From: Brumimicrobium mesophilum
GTDB taxonomy: Bacteria; Bacteroidota; Bacteroidia; Flavobacteriales_D; Crocinitomicaceae
Assembly (NCBI RefSeq): GCF_003025005.1
Contig: NZ_PVSS01000010.1
Coordinates: forward strand, 1-64,000
Direction of reading: 5' to 3'
DNA: 64,000 nucleotides
Shown here: piece after piece, positions 6,854 to 17,285 of the stretch
Position numbering within the stretch: position 1 is the stretch's first letter
How the letters are laid out: each line of letters opens with the position of its first letter
Position numbers and translations under genes: made by a program
The notes under the pieces: generated by a model
Told to the model about the DNA's origin: nothing
Databases searched by the model: none
What the model saw: only the letters and a program-made list of their open reading frames with translations

Positions 6854-7251
6854 TCTTCAATTTGATGTATTTCTAACTGTTGTTCTAATAAATCATTTCG
6901 AGAGCAATAACCAACCGTAGCAAGAATCATCACCCCCATTGAGAAAAGAACTAACGACCATCGAAGGAATTTATTGCCAATCAAGAAGCTTCTATTTCTT
7001 CCTTCAACATCAAAATTAATTCGTTCAACTTTAGCGAAATCTCTGTTATGGATCCCAAAAAGAATATAGGATTTCCCCCTTGTATCTTCTTGTCCTTTTT
7101 CGAACCAAATTCGATCACTTTTTAGCGTCTTCTCAAAGTCGTCAGCTTTTATCTTATTAGCGAAACGAAAAACTATGTAGTTAGGGTTGGAAGGATGGCG
7201 AATATAATTCACCAAGCCTAAATCTATTATATTTTCTACTTTTGAATCCAT
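6850..7251 (-). CDS. Hypothetical small membrane protein
   Basis: A 133-residue protein I do not recognise. Residues 1-90 are soluble and charged, with NYIVFRFANKIKADDFEK and EDTRGKSYILFGIHNRDFAKVERIN. A single membrane segment lies near 97-115 (WSLVLFSMGVMILATVGY). The N-terminus would be cytoplasmic. The gene overlaps the nitroreductase gene upstream by 16 bases and the barrel gene downstream by 4 bases, so the three form an operon. Confidence 0.7.
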   Translation of the reverse strand: MDSKVENIIDLGLVNYIRHPSNPNYIVFRFANKIKADDFEKTLKSDRIWFEKGQEDTRGKSYILFGIHNRDFAKVERINFDVEGRNRSFLIGNKFLRWSLVLFSMGVMILATVGYCSRNDLLEQQLEIHQIEE

Positions 7252-7823
7252 TCTGTTACATATTCTATTGGTTTACGTTGACCTTTTGGCCATTCTCCCC
7301 CAGGGTATCCAACATAAAAGAGTCCAAGACATAGGTCTTTTGGTCCGATATCTAAAAATTCTTTCATCTCATCAGAGTATACCATTTTTGGAGTAGCCCA
7401 AAAACCTCCTAATCCATACGCTGTACAAGTAAGATGTATATTTTGAACGGCACAAGCGACTGCTGCAATTTCTTCAATTTCTGGAATCTTTTCAGAAGCT
7501 TGCCTTTCCATACACACAGCAATAATCGCAGAAGCCTTTGCAGGTCTTTCAGTCATTCTGTTCAACTTTTTAGCAATTTGTTTATCCTCTGGTACAGTTT
7601 TTAAATAAAGGTCACGCATAAATTCACCCAAGCGTTTCTTACCTTCATCCATAAACACTTTGAATCTCCATGGCTGTGTTAAACCGTGAGTGGGTGCCCA
7701 AATCGCATTATTTAATAATAACTCAATTTGTTCCTTATGCACTTTTCTATCACTAAAAGATTCTGGAGAAATAGTTCTTCTATCCTTAATTAATTCAGTT
7801 ACCTCACTTAAATTATATTTCAT
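7236..7823 (-). CDS. Nitroreductase family protein
   Basis: A 195-residue FMN-dependent oxidoreductase of the nitroreductase fold, usually NAD(P)H dependent. The N-terminal phosphate-binding stretch IKDRRTISPESFSDRKV and the following NAIWAPTHGLTQPWRF are typical, as are the AVACAVQNIHLTCTAYGLGG helix and the C-terminal KPIEYV. The substrate cannot be read from sequence; members reduce nitro compounds, quinones or enones. It is the first gene of the three-gene minus-strand cluster. Confidence 0.88.
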   Translation of the reverse strand: MKYNLSEVTELIKDRRTISPESFSDRKVHKEQIELLLNNAIWAPTHGLTQPWRFKVFMDEGKKRLGEFMRDLYLKTVPEDKQIAKKLNRMTERPAKASAIIAVCMERQASEKIPEIEEIAAVACAVQNIHLTCTAYGLGGFWATPKMVYSDEMKEFLDIGPKDLCLGLFYVGYPGGEWPKGQRKPIEYVTEWIQK

Positions 7824-8036
7824 TTTTTGATGCTTTATTCAATTTGTAAAGATATTATGAATATTGTGAGTAGGTGGCATAAAGAGGATAGTATTTTTAT
7901 AAAACCAATATATGCAATCTTGTTAAAGAAACAATAATCGTTCAGCTAAAAAAATGCGGATTTCTCAGTTGTGGCTGAAAACTATTTTGTTGGTAGTTTA
8001 CTGATAATTATAAAAAGTGAAGGAAAAGGGAAGAAT

Positions 8037-8765
8037 TCATTCAAATATTGTTTGAATTACATCATTCTTATGGAATGGTTCGATGAACTGAAGTAGTTTT
8101 TTTGAATTTGTATCAATAGCAATTATTCTATTACAATATTCGAAGCATAAATCTAAATCGTGTGAAGAAATAAAAACTATTTGATCATTTAGTTGTGCAA
8201 TTTCTTTCAACAGCTGTAATACTTTCCTCCTATTGATATAATCAAGAAATGCAGTTGGCTCATCAAGAATCATGATTTTAGCATCTTGGGCAAGTGCTTT
8301 ACCAATCATAGCTATTTGTCGTTCACCATCACTTAAATTAAGTGTGTTTTTATCGGCAAACTTTGACAGCCCTAACTGATCAATCACCTTCTGAACTACT
8401 AATTGATCATCCTTAGTTAATTTATTCAACAAGTTGGTATAAGGTGCTCTACCCATTGCCACAAGATCAAAGACAGACAAATGGTCAACACCATCAAATT
8501 TAGAAGGCACAAAACTCAAATACTTGGATTTTTCAATTCTATTGAGGTTGGACCAATTCTCCCCATCAATATTAATCGCACCGGACAATATCTCTTGATG
8601 ACCTAATATGGAATTGAATAATGTTGTTTTACCTGAACCGTTTGGACCAATCACAGCGACAAAGTCACCTGGTTTAAATGACATGCTATCTACTTCAAAG
8701 AGAATCCTTTGTTCTGAATGTTTCTTTTGAGCGAAACCTATATGTAATTCTTCAAATTTAAGCAT
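8037..8765 (-). CDS. Iron/cobalamin-type ABC transporter ATP-binding protein, BtuD/FecE-like
   Basis: The ATPase of an inner-membrane importer. It has Walker A GPNGSGKT (about residues 40-47 from the chosen start), a signature LSDGERQ and Walker B IMILDEPTAF. Length (242 residues) fits BtuD/HmuV/FecE. The ATG at 8765 is preferred over the one at 8789, because TAATG links it to the stop of the permease gene and the extra eight residues are not needed. It ends the operon with the permease and binding protein. The neighbouring riboswitch operon argues for corrinoid rather than siderophore as substrate. Confidence 0.85.
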   Translation of the reverse strand: MLKFEELHIGFAQKKHSEQRILFEVDSMSFKPGDFVAVIGPNGSGKTTLFNSILGHQEILSGAINIDGENWSNLNRIEKSKYLSFVPSKFDGVDHLSVFDLVAMGRAPYTNLLNKLTKDDQLVVQKVIDQLGLSKFADKNTLNLSDGERQIAMIGKALAQDAKIMILDEPTAFLDYINRRKVLQLLKEIAQLNDQIVFISSHDLDLCFEYCNRIIAIDTNSKKLLQFIEPFHKNDVIQTIFE

Positions 8766-9763
8766 TAGAATTTCTTCATAATTATCCACATTACTACCGG
8801 AGCTCCTATTAATGCAGTTAATGCATTGAGCGGTAAACTTACAAAAGGAGCTAAAAGTTGCATTGCAATATCACAAACAACTATTAACATTGCTCCACCT
8901 ATCAAACTACCTACTAATAAATGATAGTGATTTGTGGTTTTATAAATCATCTTAATCATATTTGGAACAACAAGTCCGACAAAAGCAATTGGTCCACAAA
9001 ATGCAGTAACAACTCCAGTCAAAATAGAAGTAGCTAGAATAATTAAAAAACGAATAGTCTTCACGTTAATCCCCAGCAATGAAGCACTTTTTTCACCTAG
9101 GAGCAAAAGATTTAATGGCTTTACCAATACGATTGATAGCACAGCACCTAGGGTAATAACGAATGCTAAAACACCTAACTGATTGAACTCAACCCCCTGT
9201 AAAGAACCAAAACTCCACAGCATAAAAGTTTTTAGATTATTAGGGTCTGCATAAGCTTGCAACACACTAACCAAGGCGCCTGCAAAACTTCCAAACATAA
9301 TTCCCACCAATAATAAAGAAACTTTATTTTTTACAAAAACAGAGCAGAAAAGGATAAACAGACCAGCTCCTAACGCACCAATAATTGCGGCGGTCACAAT
9401 TCCAAAATCGCTTCCAAAAATATAAAAAGAAGACATGGTACTTATGGCTACAAGCAAAGATGACCCTGAATTGATACCAAGAACATAAGGACCTGCTAAT
9501 GGGTTTTGAAACAAAGTTTGCATTAGCAAACCTGCAACTGAAAGGGCTCCACCTGCTAAAACAGCTGTAATTACCCGTGGAAAACGAAAAACCCTAACAG
9601 TTAACTCTGCTGTTGATGTAGAATCGTAATTAAATATACCATTAAAAATATCTAGGAAACCTACATGAAAACTCCCTAAAGTGAGATCAATAATTATTAA
9701 CCCTAGAAGAAGTGCTAATAATAGCAAACTCAATTTCCAATACTTCTTATTTAGGATGTTCAT
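8765..9763 (-). CDS. FecCD/BtuC-type ABC transporter permease
   Basis: A 332-residue inner-membrane permease with about ten hydrophobic segments. Family signatures are PRVITAVLAGGALSVAGLLMQ, the segment NPLAGPYVLGINSGSSL, and GPIAFVGLVVPNM, which forms the coupling region to the ATPase. FecCD permeases import siderophores, heme or vitamin B12 as a dimer. The stop codon overlaps the ATPase start. With the ATPase and the upstream binding protein it makes a complete importer facing the cobalamin-regulated operon. Confidence 0.9.
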   Translation of the reverse strand: MNILNKKYWKLSLLLLALLLGLIIIDLTLGSFHVGFLDIFNGIFNYDSTSTAELTVRVFRFPRVITAVLAGGALSVAGLLMQTLFQNPLAGPYVLGINSGSSLLVAISTMSSFYIFGSDFGIVTAAIIGALGAGLFILFCSVFVKNKVSLLLVGIMFGSFAGALVSVLQAYADPNNLKTFMLWSFGSLQGVEFNQLGVLAFVITLGAVLSIVLVKPLNLLLLGEKSASLLGINVKTIRFLIILATSILTGVVTAFCGPIAFVGLVVPNMIKMIYKTTNHYHLLVGSLIGGAMLIVVCDIAMQLLAPFVSLPLNALTALIGAPVVMWIIMKKF

Positions 9764-9843
9764 TATAAAACAAAGGTATCAACACGAAATTAAAAAAGGG
9801 CTTTTAAGTTTGACTATTTTATAGTTATTAAAATAAAGCACTT

Positions 9844-10959
9844 TTATTCTGCAATTAATTCATAAAAATTCAACTTATCATCTTCAAATAATTCGGGATG
9901 AAAAATTTTTCCTAAATCTTCCAATAACAGATGTGGTTCAATTGGAGAGTTTTCCCAAAAACAATTGTTGTTTCCAAAATAACTGTAAAGCTTCCCTGTT
10001 CTCATGGCTTTTAGCATCTTAAACTTCTGACTTTGATTCAGTAATTCTTTTTTGGATGAGGCACCAGCATTTAACCAAAACTCCGTATCCACATTTTTAG
10101 TTATTGTTTCTTCGAGGCTTAAATTTAAACTTCCTACTCCTTTAGTTTTTGCGTAAACGTAGTCGATGTTGGCATCTTCAAACAATATGGCCATATAACT
10201 ATCTCCGGCTGGAACATTAAATATATCACCAAAATAAGTTCCCGCGAAAGCTGTTGAACCCTTTTCTTGAATTTTTAATTTATCCTTGATATTATAATAC
10301 TTAGCTTTTATTTCATCAAATATTGCACTTGCCTTCTGTTCTTTCTGGAATATTGCACCATAAACCTTTATCCACTCGGCTCGTCCTAATGGATGTGTTT
10401 CCTTCCATTCCAAAATTTTAAAAGTTTTTAAATTGGCTTGTTTTAATTTACTTAGAATAGGTGCACTATCATCGAATCCCGAATAAAAGATAATATCAGG
10501 ATTAATTGCGATGAATGCTTCAGCATCAGACATACCAAAATGTCCAACTTCTTTAACAGCAGCTTCACTTAATGGGTTGCATAGAAGATTAAAGTCTGAA
10601 AAGCCAGTGACTTTTTCTTCTAAACTTAACTTCCTCATCATTCCCAATTGGGTTGTAGACATGGCCACAACACTACTCATATTCTTTGGAAACAAATCAG
10701 GACTTGATTGATCAGTTTTAGAAATTTTATATGAATCAACAATTTCTTTAGTATCCGGATCTATGATATTGATCTCAATAAAGGATATATGATAAATAAT
10801 TTGAAAACCTTGAGCAAAATCATTTTCGAGTGTAAATTCATCCGAAATTTCCTCGATCTCAGCAAACTCTTTTTTTTCTTCAGCAGCACAAGAGCCAAGA
10901 ATAACAAGCATCAACATGCTAATAAAAATAGATTTAATGAGTAGTAACTTCTCTTTCAT
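9844..10959 (-). CDS. Periplasmic binding lipoprotein of the corrinoid/iron ABC importer, BtuF-like
   Basis: A 371-residue class III binding protein with a lipoprotein signal (lipobox LGSC, Cys about 24). The two lobes are seen from about 90 to 340, with VVAMSTTQLGMMRKL, EAFIAINPDIIFYSGFDDS and a long linking helix near RAEWIKVYGAIFQKEQKASAIFDE. It would deliver substrate to the permease encoded 80 bases downstream. The protein is longer than E. coli BtuF; iron-complex binding proteins of Bacteroidota are often about this size. Substrate assignment to corrinoids rests on the adjacent riboswitch operon. A candidate minus-strand -7 element TAATTTTG lies at 11000-10993. Confidence 0.82.
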   Translation of the reverse strand: MKEKLLLIKSIFISMLMLVILGSCAAEEKKEFAEIEEISDEFTLENDFAQGFQIIYHISFIEINIIDPDTKEIVDSYKISKTDQSSPDLFPKNMSSVVAMSTTQLGMMRKLSLEEKVTGFSDFNLLCNPLSEAAVKEVGHFGMSDAEAFIAINPDIIFYSGFDDSAPILSKLKQANLKTFKILEWKETHPLGRAEWIKVYGAIFQKEQKASAIFDEIKAKYYNIKDKLKIQEKGSTAFAGTYFGDIFNVPAGDSYMAILFEDANIDYVYAKTKGVGSLNLSLEETITKNVDTEFWLNAGASSKKELLNQSQKFKMLKAMRTGKLYSYFGNNNCFWENSPIEPHLLLEDLGKIFHPELFEDDKLNFYELIAE

Positions 10960-11334
10960 GATTAATTTTAAAAGTAATTTATTAATTTATAACAAAATTA
11001 AACGGTTTAATTAATACATAGTTCGATTAATAGTTAAAAAAACTATTAGCTGAGATTAAACTAAATAATTTTGCATTCTATTTATAAATTCTAGATTCAA
11101 CACCCCCCTAAATCAAATAATTAAACCTCTCTTTTCTAGACACTTTCCACGAAACACAAACCACTATTATTCAACTTTAGAATAATAATTTTTAAAATAA
11201 TGAATCGAATAAAAATTCAATATGATTACTGAATAATTTCATAAGACAAAAAAAATATGGATATTTACAAGATTATAAAATAATTGTAACTTATTACAAA
11301 TAAATACCGACTATAAAATTAATTTAAAAACTAT
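10960..11334. other. AT-rich divergent intergenic region
   Basis: This 375-base stretch separates the ABC importer from the small lipoprotein gene. It holds a minus-strand TAATTTTG (11000-10993) and a plus-strand TAATTTTG (11066-11073), both possible -7 elements without a clear -33 partner. I see no open reading frame of note and no cobalamin-riboswitch boxes facing the ABC importer. Confidence 0.5.
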
Positions 11335-11790
11335 ATGAAAACTATAAAACTACTTTCTTTAGGCTTACTTCTTTCAGGTGGAATACTATTTTCAAGTTGT
11401 AAAAAAGAAGGATGTACAAACCCAGTAGCTGAGAATTATGATGCCAAGGCAAAAACAAGCGACAAATCTTGCACCTACAGTGTTGATGTTGTTTTTTGGT
11501 TTGACGAAGTAACATCCCAAGCTCTTATGGGATCTGGAATTGATAAATTAAAGTTCTATTTGAACGAAGAAAATATAGGGACTTCAAACACCGATATTTT
11601 CTGGGAAGAAGCTCCAAAATGTGACGAAGGTGGTTCAATAAGATTCACTAAAACATTAGAGAAGGCTAGTTTTGAACCGTTTTATTACTATGTAACAGAT
11701 GCGGATGACGAAGATCAAGAAACAATTTGGTCTGGAATAACACAATTAGATACTGATTCATGTAGAGTTATAAGATTAACTGACTTCTAA
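11335..11790 (+). CDS. Small cysteine-containing lipoprotein
   Basis: A 151-residue lipoprotein with lipobox FSSC (Cys about 22). Just after it comes CTNPVAENYDAKAKTSDKSC, a version of the Cys-bracketed CxxPxAxNYxxxAxxxDxSC motif that is frequent in Bacteroidota surface proteins. The rest (YSVDVVFWFDE onward) looks like one beta-rich domain with two more cysteines. Function unknown. A terminator follows it, so it is not part of the riboswitch operon although it lies beside it. Confidence 0.65.
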   Translation: MKTIKLLSLGLLLSGGILFSSCKKEGCTNPVAENYDAKAKTSDKSCTYSVDVVFWFDEVTSQALMGSGIDKLKFYLNEENIGTSNTDIFWEEAPKCDEGGSIRFTKTLEKASFEPFYYYVTDADDEDQETIWSGITQLDTDSCRVIRLTDF

Positions 11791-11817
11791 TTCAACATTA
11801 CAATATTTACTTATTTT

Positions 11818-11850
11818 GTCCGTATTTCTATCTTGAAATACGGACTTTTT
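11818..11850 (+). terminator. Intrinsic terminator after the small lipoprotein
   Basis: GTCCGTATTTC pairs with GAAATACGGAC, an 11-base-pair stem with a 6-base loop, followed by TTTTTC. It isolates the lipoprotein gene from the cobalamin-regulated operon. Confidence 0.88.
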
Positions 11851-11866
11851 CTTTTATTGCATTCAC

Positions 11867-11896
11867 TTGTTTAATCCAATAATCAACTTATCTTTG
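11867..11896 (+). promoter_or_regulatory. Promoter of the cobalamin-regulated operon
   Basis: TTG (11867-11869), a 19-base spacer, and TATCTTTG (11889-11896) fit the Bacteroidota -33/-7 consensus exactly. Transcription would begin near 11902, at the first helix of the riboswitch. Confidence 0.8.
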
Positions 11897-11899
11897 TGC

Positions 11900-12072
11900 C
11901 ACGTTTTAGGGTGTATGTGAGAATCATACAATAAGGAATCTTGTTAGAATCAAGAACTGTATCTGCAGCTGTAAGCTTTATTAGTTCTTTTCATTAAACC
12001 ACTTACATGTCACTCGACAGTTGGGAAGGTAGAAAAGAAAAAAAGTGAGTCAGAAGACTTGTCTAAAATGCG
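11900..12072 (+). promoter_or_regulatory. Cobalamin riboswitch
   Basis: Recognised by conserved boxes in the right order: AAGGAATC (11933-11940) then a small CTTG/CAAG hairpin; ACTGTATCTGCAGCTGTAAG (11956 onward), matching the consensus ending in the GTAA box; CCACT (11999-12003) paired with GGGAAGGT further on; and the B12 box AGTCAGAAGACTTG (12048-12062). The outer helix pairs CGTTTTAG (11902-11909) with CTAAAATG (12063-12070). It lies directly after a good promoter and about 150 bases before the DUF4465 gene. In this class adenosylcobalamin or methylcobalamin binding lowers expression. The expression platform probably lies in 12073-12215, where AAGTCGGACTT offers a small hairpin. Confidence 0.9.
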
Positions 12073-12219
12073 TTTAAGGAGACTTCAGAATAAAGTCGGA
12101 CTTATCACATATACTGCATTATTTTAGGTCTGCTGTATTGATATTTCTATTCTTTCAGGGCTAAAGCTCAATTTGATGTCTTCATTTTATTAATTGTTTA
12201 ATTCATTAAAACTTAAAAA

Positions 12220-13185
12220 ATGAAGAAATTTTACTTTTTAGCAAGTGCGCTACTTGCTGTAACAACTCTAAAAGCGCAAACTACTGTTGACTTCGAAGAC
12301 TTATCTCTTGCGTCAGAATCTTATTACAACGGTGATGATGAAGCTGGAGAATTCGTTTCTGGCAACGTGACGTTTCAAAACACTTACACTACAGCTTGGG
12401 GTTCTTGGACTGGATTTAGTTATTCAAACGTAACTGACGTAACAACTCCAGGTTTTGCGAACCAATACAGTGCTATTCCAGGAGGAGGTTCAAATGGATC
12501 AGAAATTTACGCAGTATATTTTAGTTCAGATACTCTTTATTTCCCTGGAACACATGCTAGTTTAACAAGTGTTGATTTAACAAACACTACTGTTGGATAC
12601 TTTTCAATGAGAGATGGTGATGCATTTGCTAAACAATTTGGTTCAACAACAGATGCAAGCGGAGTTGATGACGGAACTAACGGAGAGGACTTCTTTAGTA
12701 TTATGATTTATAACCATGATGAAATGGGAATGAAGACTGATTCAATAGAATTCTTTTTGGCTGACTATAGATTTCCCGACAATAATGATGATTACATTAT
12801 CGATTCATGGACAACTGTAGATCTGTCTACTTTTCATAATGTTAACTACTTAACTTTCGGATTTAAATCGACAGATATTGGTTCGTTTGGAATAAATACT
12901 CCTTTATATTTTGCAATGGACAACCTTGTTTATGATAACACCTCTAGTTTATCTGTAAACGAAAAAGCGAACTTTGCAATGTATCCAAACCCTGCGCAAT
13001 CTACTTTGAATATCGAAGGTGATGCAGGAGATTATAAAATTTACAATACAAACGGTTCAATCGTTAAAGAATTTAAACACTCTAACATCAGTAAGGTTGA
13101 TATTTCTGACTTGAATCCAGGAATATACCTTGTTAAGGTTTCTACTAAAAATTCTTTCGGGACAAGAAAGTTAATTGTACAATAA
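12220..13185 (+). CDS. DUF4465 T9SS-secreted protein, BtuH-like corrinoid-binding candidate
   Basis: A 321-residue secreted protein. It has a signal peptide (1-19, ending LKAQ), a DUF4465 domain (about 22-240, starting TVDFEDL and containing SYYNGDD, WGSWTGFSYSN and SIMIYNH), and a T9SS type A sorting domain (about 250-321, YPNPAQSTLNIEG to RKLIVQ). It is the first gene after the cobalamin riboswitch. From general knowledge, BtuH-type surface proteins that bind B12 in gut Bacteroides include DUF4465 members; I recall this but cannot check it here. T9SS would place the protein on the cell surface, where it could capture corrinoids for the receptor encoded next. Confidence 0.88.
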   Translation: MKKFYFLASALLAVTTLKAQTTVDFEDLSLASESYYNGDDEAGEFVSGNVTFQNTYTTAWGSWTGFSYSNVTDVTTPGFANQYSAIPGGGSNGSEIYAVYFSSDTLYFPGTHASLTSVDLTNTTVGYFSMRDGDAFAKQFGSTTDASGVDDGTNGEDFFSIMIYNHDEMGMKTDSIEFFLADYRFPDNNDDYIIDSWTTVDLSTFHNVNYLTFGFKSTDIGSFGINTPLYFAMDNLVYDNTSSLSVNEKANFAMYPNPAQSTLNIEGDAGDYKIYNTNGSIVKEFKHSNISKVDISDLNPGIYLVKVSTKNSFGTRKLIVQ

Positions 13186-13192
13186 TTCCAGA

Positions 13193-15178
13193 ATGATTTT
13201 ATTGGGCACAAATAATAAGGTTTTACATGTTTTCAGGACATGTATCTTAATATTTGTGCCTTTTTTAGTGACTAGTCAAACCGACACTACAGTATTTCAA
13301 GAAGTCATCATTAAAGGTAGACATTTAAAAATTGATCAACATACTACTTTAAATGAGTCCCAAATAAAAACTCTTGCCCCAAACGATTTAGGTACTTTAC
13401 TCCAATATATTAATGGAGTAACTATAAAAAACTATGGTGGAATTGGTGGAATGAAAACACTTTCTCATAGAGGCTTGGGAGGAGAACATACACAACTTAT
13501 TATAGACGGATTACCTGTAAGCAATCCTCAAAATGGTCAAACAAATCTTGCTAACATCCAGCTAAACAATGTAGAAGAAGTTGGGTTAAGCCATCAAACG
13601 ACAAATCAACTTATTCCTGTTTCTGCATTAATAAAAGGAAGTTCGTTACAATTAAAGACATTTGACCAACAATTCTCACGAAAGAAGTTTGCACTTAAAA
13701 GTAGTATTACGGTGGGAAGTTTTGGTCAAAAAGAGGCATTTGTTGGAATAAAAAAATCTAATGACAATGCATTTATTAGTTTTAATGGAGGCTCTAGAAC
13801 ATATGAAGGAGATTATCCTTACAAATTACCATTTGGAAATCAAAACCAAGAAGTTAATCGTAGAAATAACGAATTAGAGGATTATCATTTCAACATTGGT
13901 TCAGGAATTAAATGGAGAACACATTTAACTAGCCATCAATTAAAATTCTCAGGAAAAAGAAATGTTATCCAGCAAGAGTTACCTGGAGCGGTAATCTTTT
14001 ACAATAACTTAGCACAAGAAACTTTAGAAACAGAGAACACGAGTGCTGGATTAAATTATAGTTTAATCAATACGAAAATAGCATTTAAAGCATTTGGACA
14101 ATATTCTCATCGCTTTCTTCATTACCATGACCCAACTTATCTAAATTCCGATGGTTTTTTAGATAATCAATACACAACAAATTCATTAGAAGGAGGATTT
14201 CATTTTAGGTATAAATGGAAAGATTTTATTTTTCACTTAGGAAATGATTTTGGCTATGATGCCTTAAAAAGTTCTCGAAATTTAGGAGAACCAGAAAGAC
14301 AGACCAATACTGCGATGATGAAATTAAAATATAACACCAAATATTTCAATATTGAAGCTAGTGGTTTTTCACAAACTTTTATAGATCAAAATTCTATTCA
14401 AGCACACCGAAACAACTATCATAAATTTCATCCTCAATTTTCTTTCTTTACTTCGGACTCCCTTTTCAAAGGGGTTCAGTTCTTTGTGTGGTATAAGCCA
14501 TCTTCAAGAGCTCCTTCATTCAATGAATTGTATTTTTCTCAAGTAGGGAACAAAGAATTAGTACCTGAAGAATCGTCTCAAATTAATCTTGGAACAAGAT
14601 ATATTAAAACCTATCGAAAATTAGAAATACAAATTCAAGCAAATTTGTTTAAAAACAGAGTAGATAATAAAATTATCGCCTTACCAACACAGAACTTATT
14701 TGTTTGGTCAATTCAAAACATAGGAAAAGTTGATATTCAAGGTGGTGACATTCATATCAATGCAAAATATAAATTAAACCGAAATTGGAGACTAAACATG
14801 CAGGCAGGAATAAGCTATCAAGAAGCATTAGATATCAGTGATTCCCAATCTCCAACATATAGAAATCAGATTGCTTATACTCCATCAATTACAGGAAACG
14901 CGATGGCTAGTCTTTTTTACAAAAAAACAGGATTACACTTTACCACTCTATATATTGGGGAACGTTACAGTTTAAATGAAAACACTATTGGTAATCTACT
15001 GGAGCCATATTTTATTATGGATTTATCAGCAAATTACGCCTTTGAATTCAGTAAGAAACAAAAATTAACTTTACATACAGGAGTTAAGAACTTAGGAGAT
15101 ACATCTTACAATTTCATTAAACATTTCGTAATGCCTGGAAGAAATTACTTTATAAAACTGAGTTATGAATTTAATTAA
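13193..15178 (+). CDS. TonB-dependent outer-membrane receptor, BtuB-like
   Basis: An outer-membrane transporter of about 661 residues. A signal peptide precedes the plug domain (about 35-160, EVIIKGRHLKID, NDLGTLLQYINGVTIKNYGG, LSHRGLGGEHTQLIIDGLPVSNPQ), and the rest is a 22-strand-type barrel ending in aromatic YEFN. It lacks the N-terminal carboxypeptidase-like domain of SusC proteins and has the short length of vitamin/siderophore receptors. ATG 13193 is chosen over the TTG at 13175, which overlaps the upstream gene. The riboswitch and the flanking surface proteins point to cobalamin or related corrinoids as substrate. Confidence 0.88.
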   Translation: MILLGTNNKVLHVFRTCILIFVPFLVTSQTDTTVFQEVIIKGRHLKIDQHTTLNESQIKTLAPNDLGTLLQYINGVTIKNYGGIGGMKTLSHRGLGGEHTQLIIDGLPVSNPQNGQTNLANIQLNNVEEVGLSHQTTNQLIPVSALIKGSSLQLKTFDQQFSRKKFALKSSITVGSFGQKEAFVGIKKSNDNAFISFNGGSRTYEGDYPYKLPFGNQNQEVNRRNNELEDYHFNIGSGIKWRTHLTSHQLKFSGKRNVIQQELPGAVIFYNNLAQETLETENTSAGLNYSLINTKIAFKAFGQYSHRFLHYHDPTYLNSDGFLDNQYTTNSLEGGFHFRYKWKDFIFHLGNDFGYDALKSSRNLGEPERQTNTAMMKLKYNTKYFNIEASGFSQTFIDQNSIQAHRNNYHKFHPQFSFFTSDSLFKGVQFFVWYKPSSRAPSFNELYFSQVGNKELVPEESSQINLGTRYIKTYRKLEIQIQANLFKNRVDNKIIALPTQNLFVWSIQNIGKVDIQGGDIHINAKYKLNRNWRLNMQAGISYQEALDISDSQSPTYRNQIAYTPSITGNAMASLFYKKTGLHFTTLYIGERYSLNENTIGNLLEPYFIMDLSANYAFEFSKKQKLTLHTGVKNLGDTSYNFIKHFVMPGRNYFIKLSYEFN

Positions 15179-16217
15179 ATACCTTTTCATTTTTCTATTG
15201 ATTTTCTCTTCATGTAAGAAGGATGAAATAGAGCCTGCTGTATTGTCTGACAATTTTTCGAATGGAATATTGGTTTTGAGTGAAGGACTTTTCCAACATA
15301 ACAATAGTACATTAACCTGGATTAATAATGAAACCGGAGAAATAACTTACGATATATTCCTTCAAAAAAACGAACGTCCAATAGGAGACACAGGAAACGA
15401 CATGATGTTTTACGGAGGGAAGATTTATATTGCCGTTACTGGAGCAAGTACAGTTGAAGTTTTAGATAAAAATACATTAAAAAGTATTCAACAGATTCAA
15501 TTTGATTACAATAATCAATCTCAAGAACCTAGAAGTATAGCATCCGCAGATGGAAAAGTATTTGTATCAAGCTTTGACGGATATGTTTCAGTAATTGACA
15601 CTACGTCTTTACAAATCACGAAAAGAATAAAAGTAGGTAGAAACCCAGAAGGAGTTTGTATTTCAAATCAGTCTCTTTTTGTAGCCAATTCAGGCGGACT
15701 AGATTTTCAAAACGTAGATACTACGGTTTTTGAAATTGATTTAAACACACTAGAAGTTATCGACACATTTGTTGTAGGAGACAACCCAGGTTCAATAATT
15801 TCAGATAATTTTAACAATGTTTATGTTGTAAAAAGGGGAGACTACGCATCGAATTCTTCAGAATTGGTGCGCATAAATACCATCACCAAAGAGGTTACTA
15901 ATCTTGGACACGCAGCAACCACAATGGCCCTTAGAGATAATCAATTATACATTAGTTATTTTAATTTTAACACAGGAACATCGGCGGTTTCAATCTTTGA
16001 CTGTTTTTCACAAAGTATCATCAACAGTAATTTCATCAACAATCAGGATATTACTACGCTTTATGGTGTAATTCCATATAAAACTGATGAATTGATATGC
16101 CTAGATGCAATGAGTTTTACCAATACAGGTTATTTACGTTTTTTTAATCAAACAGGGACATTAACCAACAGCTTAAAAGTTGGATTAAATCCAAATTCAA
16201 TAATACATTATGAATAA
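15165..16217 (+). CDS. YncE/DUF5074-like beta-propeller lipoprotein, BtuG-like
   Basis: A 350-residue lipoprotein (lipobox FSSC, Cys 17). The body consists of repeated four-stranded blades with YncE-like wording: NSTLTWINNETGEI, VEVLDKNTLKSIQQIQF, VSVIDTTSLQITKRIKVGRNPEGVCI, VFEIDLNTLEVIDTFVVGDNPGSII. It overlaps the receptor gene by 14 bases. In gut Bacteroides, BtuG is a surface-exposed seven-bladed propeller that caps BtuB and binds B12 very tightly. The position beside a BtuB-like gene in a riboswitch operon strongly supports the same role here. Confidence 0.88.
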   Translation: MNLIKYLFIFLLIFSSCKKDEIEPAVLSDNFSNGILVLSEGLFQHNNSTLTWINNETGEITYDIFLQKNERPIGDTGNDMMFYGGKIYIAVTGASTVEVLDKNTLKSIQQIQFDYNNQSQEPRSIASADGKVFVSSFDGYVSVIDTTSLQITKRIKVGRNPEGVCISNQSLFVANSGGLDFQNVDTTVFEIDLNTLEVIDTFVVGDNPGSIISDNFNNVYVVKRGDYASNSSELVRINTITKEVTNLGHAATTMALRDNQLYISYFNFNTGTSAVSIFDCFSQSIINSNFINNQDITTLYGVIPYKTDELICLDAMSFTNTGYLRFFNQTGTLTNSLKVGLNPNSIIHYE

Positions 16218-17196
16218 AACTATACTTTTATTACTAAGTACATGCTCAGGTATGGCGTTTGGACAATCATACGCACCTGCTGCTGGAGAACCAAATTCTA
16301 CTGCAATAGCTTTTGACGATTCAAAGTTTGTTGCGTGGGCCACAAATATAGAAATAGAACGTGGATATGTTAATATCAGTGACACTTCTGTTTATTATGA
16401 CAATTCTAATAAGGCTACATTTGGTGAACCTTCAGATGCCATTGGACCAGCAACGAATAACTCAACGGATGTTGTTTCATTAGGCGATAAGGGAGTAGCA
16501 ATTGCAACATTTGCAACACCTATTGCTAATGGAACAGGACCTGATTTTGCAATTTTTGAAAATGGATTTTCTGACAACTTTTTAGAATTAGCACATGTTG
16601 AGGTCAGTTCTGATGGCATAAATTATTTTAGGTTTCCTTCACATTCCGAGACACAAACTGAAAATTCTATTGGTGGTTTCGGATTTTTAGACCCAACCTA
16701 CCTTTATAACTTAGCAGGAAAATATAAAGTAGGCTACGGTACACCATTTGATTTAGAAGAATTAAAAGACAGTATAGGTTTAAATGTTAATTCAATCACC
16801 CATGTTAAAATCATAGATGTTGTAGGTTCTATCGACGAACATGGGACGAAAGATTCATATGGTAACAAAATCAATGACCCATTCCCTACTCCATACGGCT
16901 CAGCAGGTTTTGATTTAAATGGAATTGGTGTAATAAATGAGGAGACTTTAGGCCTAACAAAGGAAGAAATTAGTTTTAATCTATTTCCGAATCCAAGCAA
17001 TGGCATTATCAACATTGAATTCACAGGTAGTAATGATATGGAGGTCAAAATCTACAACAACACCGGGCAACAAATTAAACAATTTGTTCTTAACGAAATA
17101 AACAAGTCTATATCATTAGACTTAAACAAAGGAGTTTATTTTATCCATGGTTCAAGCCAATACAGAACGAATACTCAAAAAATCGTGATTCAATAA
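16210..17196 (+). CDS. T9SS-sorted surface protein of the cobalamin operon
   Basis: A 328-residue secreted protein with a signal peptide (about 1-18, ending AFGQ) and a T9SS type A sorting domain (about 250-328, LFPNPSNGIINIEF to QKIVIQ). The main domain (20-245) contains DSKFVAWATNIEIERGYVNI, SLGDKGVAIATFATPI, PDFAIFENGF, LAHVEVSSDGINYFRF and STPYGSAGFDLNGIGVIN-like wording near its end. The FENGF and DVSSDG pattern resembles lectin-like beta-sandwich domains. It overlaps the propeller gene by 8 bases and so is under the same riboswitch. The molecular role is not known; a surface corrinoid-binding or cap function is the natural guess. Confidence 0.78.
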   Translation: MNKTILLLLSTCSGMAFGQSYAPAAGEPNSTAIAFDDSKFVAWATNIEIERGYVNISDTSVYYDNSNKATFGEPSDAIGPATNNSTDVVSLGDKGVAIATFATPIANGTGPDFAIFENGFSDNFLELAHVEVSSDGINYFRFPSHSETQTENSIGGFGFLDPTYLYNLAGKYKVGYGTPFDLEELKDSIGLNVNSITHVKIIDVVGSIDEHGTKDSYGNKINDPFPTPYGSAGFDLNGIGVINEETLGLTKEEISFNLFPNPSNGIINIEFTGSNDMEVKIYNNTGQQIKQFVLNEINKSISLDLNKGVYFIHGSSQYRTNTQKIVIQ

Positions 17197-17254
17197 GAAA
17201 AGGATTTACAAAACATACATCAATAGCTGTAACTGTTATTTACCAGCCCCAAAT

Positions 17255-17285
17255 TAAGCGTCATTTAAAAGTGGCGCTTTTTTTG
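17255..17285 (+). terminator. Terminator of the cobalamin uptake operon
   Basis: AAGCGTCATTT and GTGGCGCTT form a stem with a G-T pair and an A-rich loop, followed by TTTTTTT. It closes the riboswitch operon 60 bases after its last gene. Confidence 0.85.

Follow-up and report, generated by a model that had tools for sequence, protein, structure and literature searches.

A cobalamin riboswitch-linked corrinoid uptake locus of Brumimicrobium mesophilum and its putatively secreted protein P8, a likely remote relative of BtuH

Background

Vitamin B12 is a shared vitamin in limiting supply; the literature that we found on its capture at the cell surface centres on lipoproteins of gut Bacteroides. 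Among the described systems, the closest to the one analysed here is operon 1 of Bacteroides thetaiotaomicron (btuB1, btuGH and btuJ1; PDB 8BLW and 9FCT). We examined a stretch of 64,000 nucleotides from Brumimicrobium mesophilum (RefSeq assembly GCF_003025005.1, contig NZ_PVSS01000010.1, positions 1 to 64,000; hereafter the window), in which a locus at 8037-17285 had been predicted from the sequence to acquire corrinoids. This locus shares with operon 1 a cobalamin riboswitch, a BtuB1-like receptor, a BtuG-like protein followed by a BtuH-type one, and a protein of the DUF4465 family. The two differ in gene content and order, in that the DUF4465 gene comes first in the window and no btuK or btuH1 genes were seen there. 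Furthermore, the BtuH domain of B. thetaiotaomicron is fused to BtuG1 (giving BtuGH), whereas its likely remote homologue in the window, which we call P8, is the product of a separate gene that overlaps btuG by 8 bases. Finally, the BtuH-type and DUF4465 proteins of operon 1 have lipid anchors, whereas both of their counterparts in the window carry sorting tails of the type IX secretion system (T9SS).

Two individual families provide further points of reference. In BtuH2 (PDB 7BIZ), Asn399 and Phe401 are B12 contacts, the former contacting the B12 phosphate (PMC8941943). P8 shares with BtuH2 a core motif that includes an equivalent of Asn399, the location in a B12 locus and probably the fold class; on the other hand, it is shorter (about 230 residues, against 270-290 for BtuH), its C-terminal pocket residues are unrecognisable and it has no lipid anchor. 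The DUF4465/BtuJ family (PF14717, IPR027828) is represented in the window by a protein that has the full domain, the tyrosine of the HI loop and an IPR026444-type tail; more than 70% of the family have been called lipoproteins (PMC13398666), whereas the window's DUF4465 protein is none. During purification on a nickel column, B12 stayed bound to the DUF4465 protein of Fluviicola taffensis, and DUF4465 genes are described as often accompanied by other DUF families that are structurally similar to the accessory proteins of B. thetaiotaomicron (PMC13398666), a remark by which P8 is partly anticipated.

The riboswitch and the plus-strand operon

We consider it highly probable that the locus serves B12-repressed capture and uptake of corrinoids in a B12-dependent bacterium, and that P8 is a remote homologue of BtuH exported by the T9SS. 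A riboswitch had been predicted at 11850-12220, and the Rfam model RF00174 indeed gives a strong match on the plus strand at 11891-12080. It scores 75.9 bits, where the gathering score is 31.5 (E 6.3e-17), covers the full model from 1 to 189 and is the sole riboswitch of the window at Rfam gathering scores. The leader downstream of the aptamer is predicted to fold with a stability no greater than that of shuffled sequences (z -0.65).

The original prediction also named the products of the genes behind this riboswitch as a DUF4465 protein, a BtuB-like receptor, a BtuG-like propeller and a T9SS-sorted protein, and the family and PDB matches agree with it. The DUF4465 (BtuJ-type) protein (12220-13185, plus strand), which has a signal peptide recognised by eye, matches PF14717 with 156.6 bits (cut-off 25) and ends in a T9SS type A tail (PF18962, 55.9 against 27 bits). 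Its solved relatives include the DUF4465 proteins PDB 9qpm (E 1.7e-18) and 9fct (BtuJ1; E 5.2e-18), and Trp78 and the HI-loop Tyr245 of BtuJ1 are kept as Trp60 and Tyr230, the latter within the sequence INTPLYF. The next gene (13175-15178, plus strand) encodes a TonB-dependent receptor with a Plug domain (PF07715), the best PDB match of which is 8blw_A, BtuB1 of B. thetaiotaomicron (E 2e-75). It is followed by a beta-propeller lipoprotein (15165-16217, plus strand; lipobox FSSC by eye) that matches DUF5074 (PF16819) with 59.1 bits against a cut-off of 27.2 and has the propeller part of 8blw_B (BtuG1 of BtuGH) as its best PDB match (E 1.9e-59). When receptor and propeller were checked for a family of another substrate, their best solved relatives were thus the BtuB1-BtuG1 pair of 8BLW. 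The last gene (16210-17196, plus strand) encodes P8. A predicted BtuH-like jelly-roll domain makes up about residues 18-245 of this protein, and a T9SS type A tail residues 258-327 (PF18962, 43.5 bits against a cut-off of 27).

Overlaps of 8-14 bases at two junctions of the operon, likewise predicted, are borne out by the receptor and propeller genes, which share 14 bases (15165-15178), and by the propeller and P8 genes, which share 8 (16210-16217). An overlap of 11 bases between the DUF4465 and receptor genes arises only with a TTG start at 13175; the receptor is probably translated from the ATG at 13193, so that a gap of 7 bases takes the place of that overlap.

P8 and the BtuH domain

The last gene product holds the greatest interest of all parts of the locus; the original prediction rightly gave it a T9SS tail and otherwise left it as an unspecified surface protein. 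The main domain of P8 has no match in Pfam and thus neither a DUF4465 nor a propeller match, for which reason its assignment to either family was rejected; a PDB search with the single sequence, tried as a means of identifying its structure, returned only matches to the T9SS tail. A profile of 19 P8 relatives (A2), by comparison, finds one of the 177,635 PDB sequences at E up to 10, namely residues 389-497 of 8blw_B (E 1.3e-5), which lie within the BtuH domain of BtuGH. With this BtuH stretch as the query, 22 matches were obtained in 14 of 395 Bacteroidota genomes. Eighteen of them, from 11 genomes, make up the alignment A5, from which three weak P8-like matches and a truncated one were left out; A5 can be taken as the BtuH family because it matches both 8blw_B (E 6.9e-101) and BtuH2 7BIZ (E 1.6e-82). 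Comparison of A2 with A5 by hhalign gives 94.3% (E 9.7e-8), and the two families have the motif SLG.GG...F...I.N..G.DF....N.F in common. Asn118 of P8, invariant in its relatives (81/81), aligns with the phosphate-contacting Asn399 of BtuH2, and Phe120 (68 of the 81) with Phe401.

A structural model of P8 residues 14-244, built with 87 sequences, has a predicted local distance difference test score (pLDDT) of 96.4 and a predicted template modelling score (pTM) of 0.92. Foldseek, run with this model on 350,542 PDB chains, again places 8blw_B first (E 5.1e-4), as the only match at E <= 0.001. The modelled structure hence agrees with the result from sequence and is insufficient alone.

Genomic associations of P8

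A draw across the phylum gave a P8 relative in 33 of 296 genomes, that of the window included, many of them by a short weak match. Surroundings were examined for 18 of the 32 other genomes, and a cobalamin riboswitch was found in 13 of these loci, a BtuB- or BtuG-like open reading frame (ORF) in 14 and either of them in 16. From a scan of named genomes, which yielded at least 544 P8 relatives, the best 80 by match were taken as named loci; the nearest relative among these is that of Brumimicrobium oceani (Crocinitomicaceae), which is 72% identical.

Riboswitches in the named loci were sought with R1, a covariance model from 16 riboswitches, which replaced a regular expression that had found 7 of 16 known examples. 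R1 matches in 68 of the 80 loci; all 69 matches are on the strand of P8. Each of the 68 counted ones ends upstream of the P8 ORF; the remaining match, the second in L094, lies between the two P8 ORFs of that locus. Since 14 of the sources of R1 are themselves from P8 loci (and at least two of the 80 loci, L086 and L132, may coincide with two of them), Rfam's own RF00174 model served as a check and was found in all 20 of the P8 loci scanned with it. The P8 ORF starts 500 bases or less from the riboswitch in 14 loci, including two records titled as Planctomycetota. BtuB, BtuG or DUF4465 is in reach of P8 in 64 of the 80 named loci, and 16 of the 80 have the gene order DUF4465-BtuB-BtuG-P8. In a record titled Glaciecola amylolytica (L090) the operon recurs exactly, with T9SS-like tails and with SprA in full; the title of this record may be wrong, and it is not counted as evidence on Gammaproteobacteria.

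Fusions provide another aspect of this family. DUF4465 and P8 are joined in one ORF in 6 of the 80 loci (L060, L072, L085, L096, L111 and L113), an architecture in which a single capture protein would have two putative sites for cobamide. P8 domains also occur in proteins of 1053-2383 residues in Bacteroidales or Bacteroidetes records (L094, L109, L130, L087, L091 and L118), with a riboswitch upstream, and lie towards the C-terminus of the large proteins of L087, L094 and L109.

Conflicting evidence and alternative explanations

Several results weigh against the reading of the locus and of P8 given above. With respect to the known components, the receptor scores 73 bits with the NCBIfam equivalog TIGR01779, below its cut-off of 599.7, and the best NCBIfam models of the permease and ATPase of the minus-strand importer (described below), BtuC and a corrinoid ABC ATPase, are reached with 181.5 and 145.1 bits, below cut-offs of 334 and 537. 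The DUF4465 protein has Val125 at the position of Tyr146 in the DE helix of BtuJ1, where 28 of 34 DUF4465 relatives have a tyrosine; its own Tyr127 is two residues further on. For P8, a narrow alignment (A6) reaches only 64.8% with A5, over 36 columns, and the alignment of P8 with BtuH is mainly of the N-terminal core, with His476, Tyr510, Trp511 and Trp577 of BtuH2 lacking an identified counterpart. BtuH2 7BIZ is neither found in the PDB by A2 (E up to 10) nor among the best 50 Foldseek matches of either P8 model. The Foldseek match to 8blw_B has a template modelling (TM) score of 0.44 by query length and a root mean square deviation of 10.5, and the next matches, which include CBM32 and F5/8C (discoidin-like) domains, come close to it with E 2e-3 to 1e-2. 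An earlier model from 19 sequences had a pLDDT of 76.4 and placed 8blw_B only ninth, on which grounds it was rejected as proof of the fold. Among the loci of the phylum-wide draw, L039 and L041 have neither a riboswitch (no Cobalamin match, E up to 1) nor BtuB/BtuG, and 12 of the 80 named loci have no R1 riboswitch; the DNA upstream is shorter than 2.5 kb in 8 of these and longer than 6 kb in 4.

One alternative is that P8 is a generic T9SS surface protein of the discoidin/CBM32 type, acting as a glycan binder or as the holder of a complex, and merely travels with B12 genes. The CBM32 and F5/8C domains that follow so closely on the best Foldseek match (5e-4) would fit this, and a precedent might be seen in BtuL of B. 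thetaiotaomicron, a locus protein for which no B12 binding was detected (PMC12751083). We regard it as unlikely, given that the one PDB sequence which the P8 profile picks out is part of a B12-binding domain, that cobalamin riboswitches and BtuB, BtuG or DUF4465 recur at the P8 loci in the numbers given above, and that 14 of the P8 ORFs, with the two from Planctomycetota-titled records, lie so near to the riboswitch.

Another alternative, to which we give a similarly small chance, is that P8 does bind corrinoids but as an independent jelly-roll family that has converged with BtuH and is no homologue of it. It would account for the weakness of the narrow profile against BtuH, for the poor global superposition and for the failure of 7BIZ to be matched. 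Against it stand the hhalign result with the broader profile A2 and the presence of the common motif in both families; moreover, the BtuH query weakly reached (E 7e-5 to 6e-4) one taxonomic family (f32, once genus g112) that the P8 query reached too, a link through a shared taxon and not through a pairwise alignment. As the broader profile gives 94.3% with BtuH but the narrow one 64.8%, the homology is likely and remote. We accordingly retain P8 as a likely remote homologue of the BtuH domain, judged from sequence comparison, and infer that it is a surface cobamide-capture protein, for which B12 binding is predicted.

A relationship in a different direction is suggested by the NCBIfam model NF033170 (LIC_13355 family lipoprotein, Leptospira), which, at an E limit of 0.01, matches 42 of the 81 P8 proteins, with a best value of 1.9e-6 and a value of 0.008 for P8 of the window. 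LIC_13355 has been described as an adhesin-like lipoprotein (PMC11891782), and a link of this family to B12 is a lead only.

Sorting tails and export routes

The InterPro entries for the T9SS and PEP-CTERM tails are IPR026444 and IPR013424, respectively. The host genome contains the T9SS core protein SprA (2389.9 bits), and T9SS tails are present on 78 of 81 P8 proteins, on 32 of 34 DUF4465 ORFs of related loci and on 13 of 39 propeller proteins scanned, 37 of these 39 coming from the 69 found in named P8 loci. The original prediction had set the T9SS-sorted proteins of this locus apart from the lipoproteins of gut Bacteroides. The distinction is right for the window and does not amount to rarity, as seen from the 32 of 34 ORFs here and from the 229 of 824 DUF4465 proteins for which IPR026444 is already published (PMC12751083).

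Two P8 proteins end, as judged by eye, in PEP-CTERM-like sequences: L064 (6848-7735, in a record titled Planctomycetota) and L078 (in one titled Phycisphaerae). The DUF4465 protein adjoining P8 in L078 has such a tail too, again by eye, and the two lie at 6935-8615. Both of these P8 genes lie behind a cobalamin riboswitch, and no SprA match was found in the two genomes; the Pfam PEP-CTERM model (E up to 0.01) is reached by 1 of 81 P8 proteins. With T9SS tails in Bacteroidota and PEP-CTERM-like ones in genomes without a SprA match, the capture domains seem, by this comparison, to go together with the anchoring route available in their host. Mixed tails on DUF4465 proteins have been published (PMC12751083), and no report of them on the P8 domain was found in the incomplete literature listings searched, where a search combining cobalamin, T9SS, riboswitch and Bacteroidota also returned nothing.

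Putting these threads together, P8 may represent a widespread secreted family of cobamide-binding proteins remotely related to BtuH, with a tail matched to the host (T9SS or PEP-CTERM), sometimes fused to DUF4465 or included in proteins of 1000-2400 residues, and perhaps taking in Leptospira LIC_13355. This wider proposal is tentative, and we put its chances somewhat short of even.

The minus-strand importer

Divergently from the operon, the minus strand encodes a BtuF-type substrate-binding lipoprotein (9844-10959; Peripla_BP_2 PF01497, 86.3 bits; lipobox LGSC by eye), a BtuC-type permease (8765-9763; FecCD PF01032, 255 bits) and a BtuD-type ATP-binding cassette (ABC) ATPase (8037-8789, with a GTG as ORF start; PF00005, 96.1 bits). 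The original prediction had this importer facing the riboswitch operon, and the divergent BtuFCD-type genes are as described; it needs amending in that a further ORF lies between the two and that the importer is without a riboswitch. Homologues of the BtuF-type protein were seen in 9 of the 80 named loci of P8, many of the 80 not extending far enough to include one. In other loci of Flavobacteriales, a BtuF/BtuC-type pair precedes P8 operons. We infer the B12 specificity of the importer from its family scores, which are below cut-off, and from this synteny.

That the importer instead takes up a siderophore or haem, with only the plus-strand operon related to B12, is improbable: the Rfam scan of the window found no riboswitch upstream of it, the FecCD family is mixed in substrate, and the best PDB matches of the BtuF-type protein are weak ones to an iron-hydroxamate binder (E 8e-5) and an enterochelin binder (E 9e-3), but the best NCBIfam models are nonetheless those for BtuC and a corrinoid ATPase, the position of the BtuF/BtuC-type pair before P8 operons recurs, and operon 4 of B. 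thetaiotaomicron (btuF2, btuC2 and btuD2) is regulated like the other operons while having no identified riboswitch (PMC12751083). The proteins of operon 4 are unchanged in a proteomics table of the same paper.

The window has a lone nitroreductase at 7236-7823. In L035 (3351-5045) and L037 (3270-4955) a fusion of a nitroreductase, perhaps BluB-like, with CobT lies between the importer and the riboswitch (CobT PF02277 was tested for L035).

Host physiology and other cobalamin riboswitches

The host genome (99.82% complete) contains MetH, methylmalonyl-CoA mutase and an IcmF-like protein, and no match to CobT, CobS or MetE was detected in it with one Pfam model each, earlier corrin steps not having been searched. 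Together these point to an organism that uses B12 and depends on its import. The genome has three cobalamin riboswitches. The strongest of them (L052, 8127-10136, contig C56) is followed by a gene for a 602-residue T9SS-tailed propeller-like protein with an HYR-like domain and then by one for a DUF255 thioredoxin-like protein, which is possibly a second surface B12 system. The propeller-like protein has no PDB sequence match (E up to 1) and no DUF5074 match, and its BLAST match to one BtuG-like protein is marginal (E 0.005). Another (L053, 8830-12035, contig C12) precedes genes for class I ribonucleotide reductase, an arrangement which suggests that B12 switches off the B12-independent enzyme.

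Borders of the operon

Between importer and operon lies an ORF for a small lipoprotein-like protein of 151 residues (11335-11790, plus strand), which has no match in Pfam or NCBIfam at E up to 0.1 and is probably outside the B12 system. A terminator-like hairpin from a hairpin scan lies 3' of this ORF and 5' of the riboswitch (11818-11845, plus strand), and another 3' of P8 (17256-17279, plus strand). As the number of such hairpins is at chance level (3 found, against a shuffle mean of 2.3 with a standard deviation of 1.6), only their placement hints at the borders of the unit.

Conclusions

The locus is a well-confirmed instance of known B12 uptake biology, and P8 is the part of it that goes beyond what we found in print. 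Judging from the aptamer, a low cellular cobamide level would lead the riboswitch to permit expression of the four-gene unit. The DUF4465 protein and P8, with their predicted export by the T9SS, could then sit on the outer face of the cell or be released, and would bind cobamide there, as published for relatives of the former and predicted for the latter; in P8, lipid anchoring of a BtuH-type domain would have been replaced by T9SS export. By analogy with 8BLW, the BtuG-like lipoprotein may cap the BtuB-like receptor and hand the ligand over to it, for import presumably driven by TonB energy, after which the divergent BtuFCD-type importer would move the cobamide across the inner membrane.

What is added here to the published picture is P8 as a riboswitch-linked, remotely BtuH-like secreted family, the function of which follows expectation. 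If P8 does bind cobamides, many other Bacteroidota would use capture proteins that are exported by the T9SS and possibly released, and a testable function would be assigned to a domain that Pfam does not recognise. The fused and giant forms of P8 would, in that case, offer clues to how capture proteins hand over B12.

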